DNA from: Acidobacteriaceae bacterium
GTDB lineage: Bacteria; Acidobacteriota; Terriglobia; Terriglobales; Acidobacteriaceae
DNA: 64,000 nucleotides
Direction: 5' to 3'
Assembly: GCA_025352065.1 (NCBI GenBank)
Contig: JANXUC010000157.1
Location: 1-64,000, forward strand
Made by a program: the position numbers and the translations under genes. Below the pieces are notes generated by a model. That model saw nothing but the letters and a program-made list of their open reading frames with translations, did no database searches and had not been told where the DNA came from. This document shows, in pieces, positions 20,517-23,891 of this stretch. How positions within the stretch are numbered: position 1 is the stretch's first letter; the number at the start of each line of letters is the position of its first letter.

Positions 20517-21956
20517 TTGCCTGCTCGCGTTCGCCCTTATCTTTATTACGATGTTTGCCTCAGCCTTTGTTCCACCTGCCTTGTCAAGATAGAAGGTAAG
20601 ATTGTGTTCCAGGATGGCAACGTATTCATGTTGAAGCGTTGCCCGGAACACGGCAGCGAACGGGTGCTCATTGCCGACGACATCGACTACTACCGCCGCT
20701 GCCGCGAAGTATTTATCAAGCCTCCGGAAATGCCGCTGGCGTACAACACGCCCGTGCGCTGGGGATGCCCCTACGACTGCGGCCTCTGCACGGATCACGA
20801 ACAGCACTCCTGCCTCTCCTTGATTGAGGTTACTGACCACTGCAATCTGAGTTGCCCAGTTTGCTACGCGGAAAGTGGACCGTCGCGCACAAGCTTCCGC
20901 TCGTTGGCTGAAATCGAACGCATGATGGATGCGGTGGTGCGCAATGAAGGTGAGCCCGACGTAGTACAGATTTCTGGCGGCGAGCCTACGATCCATCCCG
21001 ATTTCTTTGCCATTCTCGATATGGCAAAAGCCCGTCCGATAAGGCATTTAATGGTGAACACGAACGGCCTCCGCATCGCGCAGGAGGAAGAGTTCGCCAA
21101 GCGTCTGGCAGACTATATGCCGAATTTTGAAGTCTATTTGCAGTTCGATTCTTTCGAACGCGAGGCATTGCTGGAATTGCGAGGCTCGGACTTGCGGCGT
21201 GTGCGCGAGGAAGCTCTGGAACACCTGAACCGTTACAACATTTCCACCACGCTGGTCGTCACGCTTAAAAAAGGGCTGAATGATGGCGAAATCGGCAAAA
21301 TCATCGACTACGCCTTGCAACAGCCTTGCGTACGAGGTGTAACTCTGCAGCCGATTCAAGCCGCCGGACGCGTCGAGAATTACGACCCCGCGCGCGACCG
21401 ACTAACGCTGACGGAAGTTCGGCGCAAGATTTTGGAACAGAGTACGGTGTTTCGTTCTGAAGACGTGATCCCAGTGCCATGCCATCCCGACAGCCTAGCC
21501 ATGGCTTACGCGCTCAAGGTGGGCGGCAAGATTGTTCCACTTACAGGAATGATCGACCCCAAGATTCTACTGGAAGGTGGCCGCAACACCATTGTCTATG
21601 AAGAAGAAAATGCAATCCGCGACCACGTGTTCAAACTATTTTCTACAAACCATTCACCGCAGTCCGGCGCTACCAGCCTTCGCGATCTGCTTTGCTGCCT
21701 GCCCCACGTAGCGGCTCCAGCCAACTTGAGTTATGAAAACCTCTTTCGCATTCTCATTATCCAATTCATGGACTCGTACAGCTTCGATGTCCGCTCAGTG
21801 AAGAAGAGCTGCATTCATATGGCGCAGCCGGACGGGCGATTGATCCCATTCGATACTTACAACATTTTTTATCGCGACGAATTGGCGCAGACACGCCTGG
21901 CGCCGATCCGCGAGAAGACGCGTCCGGAACTGGTTCAGCTTCACGGTTCGATTTAA
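20517..21956 (+). CDS. Radical SAM protein resembling tetraether/membrane-spanning lipid synthase (Tes family)
   Basis: A 479-residue protein. The N-terminus has SLCSTC (Cys 18, 21) and a CPEHG motif (Cys 42), as in a rubredoxin-like site. GCPYDCGLC (Cys 84, 88, 91) is a second cluster-like motif. The radical SAM motif CNLSCPVC has Cys 109, 113 and 116, with the ISGGEPT block next. This Cys layout is what I recall from archaeal Tes (MJ0619), which joins two lipid chains tail-to-tail by C-C bonds. Acidobacteriota make membrane-spanning iso-diabolic acid and branched GDGT-type lipids, so a lipid role fits. Start codon is TTG at 20517, after an AGGAGG-like sequence. Confidence 0.75.
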   Translation: MPARVRPYLYYDVCLSLCSTCLVKIEGKIVFQDGNVFMLKRCPEHGSERVLIADDIDYYRRCREVFIKPPEMPLAYNTPVRWGCPYDCGLCTDHEQHSCLSLIEVTDHCNLSCPVCYAESGPSRTSFRSLAEIERMMDAVVRNEGEPDVVQISGGEPTIHPDFFAILDMAKARPIRHLMVNTNGLRIAQEEEFAKRLADYMPNFEVYLQFDSFEREALLELRGSDLRRVREEALEHLNRYNISTTLVVTLKKGLNDGEIGKIIDYALQQPCVRGVTLQPIQAAGRVENYDPARDRLTLTEVRRKILEQSTVFRSEDVIPVPCHPDSLAMAYALKVGGKIVPLTGMIDPKILLEGGRNTIVYEEENAIRDHVFKLFSTNHSPQSGATSLRDLLCCLPHVAAPANLSYENLFRILIIQFMDSYSFDVRSVKKSCIHMAQPDGRLIPFDTYNIFYRDELAQTRLAPIREKTRPELVQLHGSI

Positions 21957-22525
21957 GGAGTCAACTTGCCAGCCGCCATGTAGTTTTGCGAAGCAATACC
22001 AAACGCGTCAGCGACACGATTGAAGAAAGCGAACAACCCTGTGATGTAAACGGCCTCTGCGATCTGATCTTCCTTCCAACCCGCATCGCGCAGCTTCTGC
22101 ACATCTTCCGTAGTCGAACGGTAGGCTGCTTGTGTAATCAGCTCGACATAATCAAGCAGAACGCGCTCCGCCGCTGTCAGGCCCGCTTCGTCGAGCTTAC
22201 CCTTCAGAACCGCTGCAACACATTCATCGGTCGCTCCCTGAACACGCAGGAAGTAAGCATGGCTGTCCAGTCAATACGGGCAGCGGTTCAAATACGAAAC
22301 ATGGCTGGCGATCATTTCCTTGGTACGTCGAGAGAGATGCCCTTCGGAAAAATGAACGGTGTTGGAGAAGTCAACAACCTGCCGAAGGAAGTCCGGCCGT
22401 GCCCCAAAGCACTGGATGATGCCCGGCACCTGCTGGCGTCCGGAACCAGCGCGCCAATAGTCATAGGCGGCGGCGGTTTCGCCTGTCGCTTCGTGGTCTT
22501 CGATGATTCTAATTTTCGTTTTCAT
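21953..22525 (-). CDS. AhpD-like alkylhydroperoxidase, probable selenoprotein (CxxU)
   Basis: ATG at 22525 opens a carboxymuconolactone-decarboxylase/AhpD-fold protein. The frame meets TGA at codon 85, within C-P-Y-TGA, where relatives have CPYC. Past the TGA it stays open for 105 more codons of clear family sequence (LDSHAYFLRVQGATDE, LLDYVELITQAAYRST, VYITGLFAFFNRVADAFG) to TAA at 21953. The whole is 190 residues, the usual length. The TGA therefore replaces the catalytic resolving or peroxidatic Cys, and a stem follows it at once. The enzyme should reduce organic hydroperoxides. It overlaps the permease gene by 17 bases and the Tes-like gene by three. Confidence 0.82.
22238..22270 (-). promoter_or_regulatory. 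Candidate bacterial SECIS stem directly after the TGA codon
   Basis: On the minus strand CTGGACA (22264-22270) follows the TGA and can pair with TGTTCAG (22238-22244), giving a 7-bp stem with one G-U and a 19-nt interior (GCCATGCTTACTTCCTGCG). Bacterial SECIS hairpins lie immediately 3' of the UGA and bind SelB. The apical loop does not clearly match the E. coli fdhF loop, but SECIS sequence varies widely between species. Confidence 0.5.
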
Positions 22526-23891
22526 ATCGAAAGATGAGCTTGCTTTGTTCCGCCCACTTCTTTGAGAACAGCGCATGAACCGGGAGGCCCGTCATTACGA
22601 CAACCGATCCCAAAACAACTTCTCTAGGGTTATGCCCCGCTAGTAGGACGAGAAGCAGCGCCACGAGCAAGAGAAACACCAGCGGCGTAAAAGGATATCC
22701 CGCCGTCAAGATCACGGACTCCGCACTCGTTGGGCGTCGACGAATCACAAACAATCCAGCGACAGTCAACCCTATAAAAGCCACGGCGGCAAAAACAAAG
22801 TATCCCAGAATTTGCTGGAAACTGCCCAGAAAAATCAGCGCACAAGCAATTGCGCTTTGCAGTAGGATTGCGTTCGCGGGAGTTCCAAAACGTGGATGGG
22901 TACGCGCGAAAACCGGCAAGAATAGGCCATCGTTCGCCATCGCGTAGTAAACCCGGGGAGCGGCCATCATAAAAGCCGCCAGGCTTCCGACCACACACAG
23001 AATTACGACTGCCGCAAATGCCGTGCCGCCAGTGGCGCCGAAGAGCTGTTCTCCGGCTTGGGCAACAAAGGTCTCGTCGGAGGTTACCTTCTCAATCGGA
23101 ACAAGATAGAGAAACGCTGCGCTTACCGCAACGTAAACGATAGTCACAATAAGCACTCCCAGAACGAGCGCTCGCGGCAATGTGCGACCTGGATCGCGAA
23201 CTTCGCCAGAAATCTTTGTGACATCCCACCAGCCACCAAACGAGAAAAACGCTCCAACCAAAGCCGCCGCCAGCGCTGGTCCGAGCGGCATCGCACCGGA
23301 ATGTTGCGCTGCGAAGGGAACAAAATTCGACCATGATCCCAAGCGAAATGCAAAGGCCCACACCACAAGCACACCCAGCACTCCGAGCTTGAGCCATGTC
23401 ATTCCACGCATGAACCCAGCGCTTAAAGGCAAACTGCGAACGTTCATTCCCCCAAGAACTAAGACCATGCTGACCGCCGCCAGCTTGGTGACCAGCGGAG
23501 GCCAGTGGAAAATATAGGCGGCATAGCTGCCAACCCCGGTCGCCAGCGCCGCCGTCAGCCCAGGGTCCATCACCAGCAGAGACATCCAGCCATAAAGAAA
23601 GGCGATGCGGTCGCCAAAAGCCTCTCGCAGATAGGCATACGAGCCGCCAGCACGCGGGAATCGCCCAGCGAGCTCGCCATAACACAAGGCGCCGCTCACG
23701 GTCATGGCACCCATGACGAGCCATGCAATGAGGATCCACATTGGAGATCCTAGCGATTTCGCCATGCCCGCGGGGGTCAGGAAAATGCCTACCGCGATGC
23801 ATTCTCCCGTGACGACGGCGATGGCAGAGGCCAATCCCAACTCGCGCCGCAAACCTGTTTTGCCAGCTGTAGGTGCGATTTCAGTCTTCAT
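22509..23891 (-). CDS. APC-family amino acid permease
   Basis: A 460-residue membrane transporter with about 12 hydrophobic segments. The N-terminal helix contains AVVTGECIAVGIFLTPAGMA, the substrate/ion-binding TM1 type of the APC/LAT group (GIFLTP). GELAGRFPRAGGSYAYL is the conserved loop after TM2-TM3, and FFSFGGWWDVTKISGEVRDPGRTLPRAL is the TM6-7 signature, read in parts. It imports or exchanges amino acids. The exact substrate is unknown. Its end overlaps the selenoprotein gene start by 17 bases. Confidence 0.88.
   Translation of the reverse strand: MKTEIAPTAGKTGLRRELGLASAIAVVTGECIAVGIFLTPAGMAKSLGSPMWILIAWLVMGAMTVSGALCYGELAGRFPRAGGSYAYLREAFGDRIAFLYGWMSLLVMDPGLTAALATGVGSYAAYIFHWPPLVTKLAAVSMVLVLGGMNVRSLPLSAGFMRGMTWLKLGVLGVLVVWAFAFRLGSWSNFVPFAAQHSGAMPLGPALAAALVGAFFSFGGWWDVTKISGEVRDPGRTLPRALVLGVLIVTIVYVAVSAAFLYLVPIEKVTSDETFVAQAGEQLFGATGGTAFAAVVILCVVGSLAAFMMAAPRVYYAMANDGLFLPVFARTHPRFGTPANAILLQSAIACALIFLGSFQQILGYFVFAAVAFIGLTVAGLFVIRRRPTSAESVILTAGYPFTPLVFLLLVALLLVLLAGHNPREVVLGSVVVMTGLPVHALFSKKWAEQSKLIFRYENEN

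Follow-up and report, generated by a model that had tools for sequence, protein, structure and literature searches.

A predicted AhpD-like selenoprotein with a CPYU active site in Acidobacteriaceae

Introduction

Could a TGA codon at the second cysteine position of a CxxC motif encode selenocysteine (Sec) rather than end the protein? The question is raised by a frame in the window analyzed here, that is, the whole stretch of 64,000 nucleotides from an Acidobacteriaceae bacterium. The original prediction read this frame as an AhpD-like selenoprotein with a CPYU active site, and both the Sec machinery of the genome and the recurrence of the TGA among homologues, described below, support it. The accompanying statement that AhpD-like CxxU selenoproteins are known in bacteria is borne out by the literature: those of COG2128 were found in 2005 as 27 Sargasso Sea sequences (PMC1088965), and the TIGR01926 family has been listed with CxxU, including MCB9421940.1 (PMC13188914).

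Results

The gene, its frame and the predicted Sec codon

The predicted gene and its features are listed in Table 1. Translation confirmed the coordinates, the placing of the TGA as codon 85 and the stretch of family sequence that follows it for 105 codons, all as originally given. We add that the gene is encoded on the minus strand; translated from the plus strand, the interval does not give this gene. With TGA read as U, the context of codon 85 is ...LNRCPYULDSHAYF.... This TGA is the only one in the frame, it occupies the second CxxC position as had been proposed, and the frame continues beyond it. The expectation that automatic annotation would cut the gene short also proved correct, as the list of open reading frames shows the upstream fragment only. 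In all 36 genomes that carry this form of the gene, automatic annotation would end it at 84 residues and thereby hide the catalytic residue.

Table 1. Positions of the predicted selenoprotein gene and associated features in the window.
Feature	Position	Strand	Details
AhpD-like selenoprotein gene (predicted)	21953..22525	minus	190 codons; ATG at 22525, TAA at 21955-21953; translated with TGA=U
Predicted Sec codon: TGA as codon 85, at the second catalytic position of CPYU	22271..22273	minus	same codon in 36/36 Sec-form homologues
SECIS apical stem-loop CUUCCUG-CGUGUU-CAGGGAG (predicted)	22234..22253	minus	7 bp, 6-nt loop; fold -7.5 kcal/mol; codon freezing
APC-family amino-acid permease	22509..23891	minus	immediately 5' of the selenoprotein gene, with 17 nt of overlap between its end and that gene's start

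The selenocysteine machinery of the genome

Does this genome possess the means to decode such a codon? All four genes that the original prediction proposed to look for were found in the assembly (4.25 Mb, 183 contigs, 98% complete), namely selA, selB, selD and the tRNA-Sec gene selC with the anticodon TCA, each scoring over its curated cut-off. The selD gene (L020, G000:C80:71799-72731) has an in-frame TGA of its own at the catalytic-cysteine position, read as AAGUASKLSP, and we take its Sec to correspond to Cys17, the catalytic residue of E. coli SelD. The SelD of this genome is itself a predicted selenoprotein.

Furthermore, another AhpD-like gene of the same genome (L142, G000:C162:8184-8519) shows a TGA at L142:1576 within a CDYU motif (QINRCDYULASH), with a strong stem-loop directly 3' of the TGA, and it probably encodes another selenoprotein. 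Because the window gene, selD and this CDYU gene each carry an in-frame TGA, Sec is probably used in at least three genes of this genome.

Sec and Cys forms among homologues

We surveyed 398 genomes of the same family, Acidobacteriaceae, at a threshold of E <= 1e-20 and found a homologue in 90 of them. The codon-85 TGA was present in 36 genomes (the window genome and 35 others), with the frame intact downstream in all and with divergence reaching down to 60% protein identity. The matches include copies at 86% and 78% identity in Acidobacteriales and Acidobacteriaceae MAGs, and the TGA form is also carried on contig 1 of genome G216. The more distant copies of the family (about 36-52% identity) have Cys at codon 85. 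When the homologues were aligned at this codon, the residue was U in the 36 Sec forms and C in 21 of the 21 Cys forms sampled, the one exception being a decayed second copy with Gly.

The distribution of the two forms follows the Sec machinery. The selA gene was found in 35 of the 36 TGA genomes compared with 4 of the 44 Cys-only genomes (Fisher p = 5.7e-17, with relatedness ignored), against a background of 183 among the 398 family genomes. On the tree, the Sec forms and the Cys forms fall on opposite sides of one branch, the Sec group being moderately supported (78/20, a rough value). The clade offers a clean natural experiment on the exchange of Sec and Cys: one group has Sec and the other Cys, presence tracks selA, and the SECIS is synonymously frozen.

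Related copies were also seen outside this clade. Beyond the family, in the phylum sample, genome G708 has a TGA within a CHYU motif at 51% identity, and in another family four genomes have CYYU- or CSYU-like copies at 33-36% identity; plasmid records yielded only distant peroxidase-related proteins with less than 60% identity. A second TIGR01926 group within the same bacterial family (L097-L106) has the motif C[VK]YU, its TGA is followed by an invariant hairpin, CGCAGAGUUUCUGCG, and selA was found in 10 of its 10 genomes. It is a separate branch of predicted AhpD-like selenoproteins with a SECIS of a different shape.

The Gly copy mentioned above lies on the minus strand of locus L053 (G222:C328:466-1020), where it adjoins the Sec copy in opposite orientation. 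Gly (GGC) replaces Sec, Gln replaces His89 and the SECIS stem is broken, features by which this copy is a putative decayed or repurposed paralogue.

A candidate SECIS element within the coding sequence

Which element could direct the recoding? The original prediction had placed a 7-bp stem directly after the TGA; the length of the stem is as described, but it is separated from the TGA by 17 nt. The distance from the UGA to the loop is 24 nt, and position 2 of the loop is a G. The bacterial SECIS model specifies a loop of 3-9 nt with a G among its first two positions, a stem of 4-16 bp, a UGA-to-loop distance of 16-37 nt, and an MFE of at most -7.5 (PMC13188914). The window stem-loop agrees with all of these constraints, its energy being borderline (-7.5, for the bare stem-loop). 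Compared with shuffled sequences, the window stem folded no better (z 0.4), and a scan of the element against Rfam returned chance matches only and no matching family. There was no covariation in the stem, because the stem is invariant (99.6% of the alignment cells are paired).

Codon usage was far more informative. Codons 84, 86-87 and 91-97 show synonymous freezing across the 36 Sec forms, with Leu93 encoded by CTG in every one. Codons 91-97 coincide exactly with the most constrained seven-codon stretch of the gene, whose value none of 20,000 column permutations attained. The Cys forms (n = 21), on the other hand, show no synonymous constraint across codons 91-97. It is this codon choice, and not the folding energy, that is the decisive support for the predicted SECIS element.

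Outside the stem-loop, the codon preceding the TGA (window 22271-22276, minus strand) was TAT in 36 of 36 Sec forms and never TAC, which could possibly reflect a context requirement for UGA decoding.

We propose that tRNA-Sec and SelB would read the UGA at codon 85 as selenocysteine, and that this recoding would be directed by the SECIS stem-loop, which lies 17-37 nt past the UGA and inside the coding sequence. From the sequence data, Sec is almost certainly inserted at this codon. Taken as a whole, the best explanation of the window gene is that it encodes a true AhpD-like selenoprotein, and we consider this very probable.

Could the TGA have a more ordinary origin? A nonsense mutation or a sequencing error at codon 85, making the gene a recent pseudogene or an artifact of assembly, would be in keeping with the fragmentation of the assembly into 183 contigs and with the fact that, but for this single TGA, the frame would be that of an ordinary CxxC gene. 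The same TGA recurs, however, in the 35 other genomes, which are independent assemblies, at the divergence given above and with the frame intact downstream. It is therefore not a sequencing error, the objection raised at the outset, and the argument that a chance nonsense mutation would be unlikely has held up as well, since the codon-85 TGA is shared by 36 distinct close homologues, none of which has a TGA elsewhere inside the gene. A pseudogene or an assembly error is thus extremely improbable. The same can be said of a genuine stop, which would leave an 84-residue protein followed by a separate or dead frame: automatic annotation would indeed call the upstream fragment, but conservation is as strong across the 105 downstream codons as upstream of the TGA, H89, N169, R170 and G176 being invariant, and the CMD domain runs across the TGA. 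Equally improbable is a TGA read as some other amino acid, through a genome-wide code change or chance read-through, for which the open frame past the TGA speaks and nothing else. Many homologues end in a TGA stop, the tRNA with the anticodon TCA is tRNA-Sec, the presence of the gene tracks selA, and Cys is the sole residue exchanged for Sec in functional homologues, all of which argue against such a reading.

Family, fold and active site

The protein is a member of TIGR01926 (peroxidase-related enzyme; 90.9 bits, cut-off 81.8) and also matches ahpD_dom (53.7 bits, cut-off 27.8) and Pfam CMD (69.8), the latter domain occupying residues 61-139 of a 207-residue reading. It is not a member of AhpD proper (TIGR00777; 21.2 bits, cut-off 191.95), NF041238 (AhpD_rel_CFYUT; 69 bits, cut-off 175) or NF053654 (GroundWater_YciW; 28.9 bits, cut-off 310). 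The AlphaFold2 model is all-helical with a mean pLDDT of 95, and the nearest solved folds are 2prr, 6k40 and 3c1l (TM about 0.82); PA0269 and the debrominase Bmp8 (6ohi, 6ohj) were also among the fold matches.

Residues E70, C82, Y84, U/C85 and H89 are invariant among the homologues, and the window protein satisfies the relay pattern Glu-x11-Cys-x-Tyr/His-Cys(Sec)-x3-His. In PA0269, for which peroxidase activity has been measured, the relay consists of Glu36-Cys48-Tyr50-Cys51-His55; for AhpD-like proteins in general, no substrates are known (PMC3141380).

Genomic context and apparent loss of Sec decoding

The pair formed by the permease and the selenoprotein gene recurs in six other genomes (L067-L071 and L025). 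A sister branch has 12 genomes (L059-L063, L074 and L111-L116) with the arrangement selA-selB-ahpD(Sec), in 10 of which selC lies within a few kb of selA. In three further genomes (L120, L121 and L122), selA-selB is followed by fdhA with an in-frame TGA (NQARI*HSSTVPGLGT) where related genomes have the AhpD-like selenoprotein.

A radical SAM gene (window 20517-21956, plus strand) is convergent with the selenoprotein gene and has no in-frame TGA. Its closest models are TrsS (321 bits, cut-off 490) and the Tes tetraether lipid synthase (280 bits, cut-off 450), and it scores below both cut-offs. Since its linkage to the selenoprotein gene is not kept at the other fetched loci, we excluded it from the system.

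The clade also includes one genome, G101 (L058, G101:C3:19000-36000), in which Sec decoding was apparently lost very recently. Here, an open TGA copy stands beside a 5'-truncated selB that starts at residue 88 of the window-genome SelB, selA is absent, and no tRNA-Sec was found. The locus looks like a deletion within a former selA-selB-ahpD cluster, with the TGA gene left as a relic of a recent loss; an assembly error is an alternative reading of the pattern. A tRNA-Sec was also not found in eight other selA-bearing TGA genomes, where strict filters were applied to mostly fragmented assemblies.

How might these arrangements be connected? It is conceivable, if rather unlikely in its entirety, that in Acidobacteriaceae this selenoprotein is among the main clients by which the Sec system is maintained; that selA-selB carries a single selenoprotein gene downstream, either ahpD(Sec) or fdhA(Sec); that the Sec trait erodes once the cluster is broken, leaving a TGA relic; and that in the branch of the window the gene moved beside the permease and acts in a hitherto undescribed redox pathway of its own.

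Proposed chemistry

In the mechanism we propose, Glu70 and His89 would activate Sec85, which would attack a hydroperoxide; Cys82 would then resolve the oxidized selenium, and a thiol donor would complete the reduction. Peroxidatic chemistry of Sec85 is reasonably probable from the sequence features, with a hydroperoxide as the presumed substrate and a thiol as the presumed reductant. Might the selenoprotein instead catalyze a different reaction? As Bmp8 shares the fold, another reductive reaction, such as the dehalogenation carried out by that enzyme, is possible, as is a thiol-disulfide reaction tied to the neighboring permease. A generic peroxidase would not explain the conserved pairing with the APC permease in the branch of the window, and the lack of known substrates for AhpD-like proteins (PMC3141380) leaves room for such a role. 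On the other hand, the nearest matches in both sequence and fold are "peroxidase-related" proteins, the entire relay is present, and the sister branch links the gene to selA-selB and not to a permease. A selenoprotein without hydroperoxidase activity is a less probable but by no means remote reading.

Discussion

How does the predicted selenoprotein compare with its known relatives? The CxxU selenoproteins of COG2128 and TIGR01926 have the same family model, the same CxxU motif and the same kind of in-gene bacterial SECIS as the window protein. The window clade seems to differ from them in forming a distinct, well-separated Acidobacteriaceae clade with its own SECIS sequence, and in being linked to selA-selB in one branch and to the APC permease in the other. 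PA0269 and the solved AhpD-like proteins (2o4d, 2ijc, 2prr, 6k40 and 3c1l) share the all-helical fold and the spacing of the Glu-Cys-Tyr-Cys-His relay, but they have Cys where the window protein has Sec, and they are 22-27% identical to it. Sec85 takes the place of the second CxxC cysteine, which is Cys133 in the AhpD of M. tuberculosis and Cys51 in PA0269. In the M. tuberculosis enzyme (1knc, TIGR00777), the CxxC core with Glu118, Cys130, Cys133 and His137 matches the window protein in position, whereas the chain topology around the core differs and the fold match is weak (TM 0.55, E 0.05). NF041238 and NF053654 are models named for (seleno)proteins and describe a related AhpD-core domain, but the window protein falls below the cut-offs of both.

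Within Acidobacteriota, Occallatibacter riparius DSM 25168 was examined with deep-Sep and has three known selenoprotein genes (PMC12013277), among which a member of the window clade may already be included. The CxxU kind of AhpD-like protein has been known since 2005, and the Acidobacteriaceae clade is a solid addition to it, bringing AhpD-like selenoproteins of the Acidobacteriota into a family described mainly from marine data.
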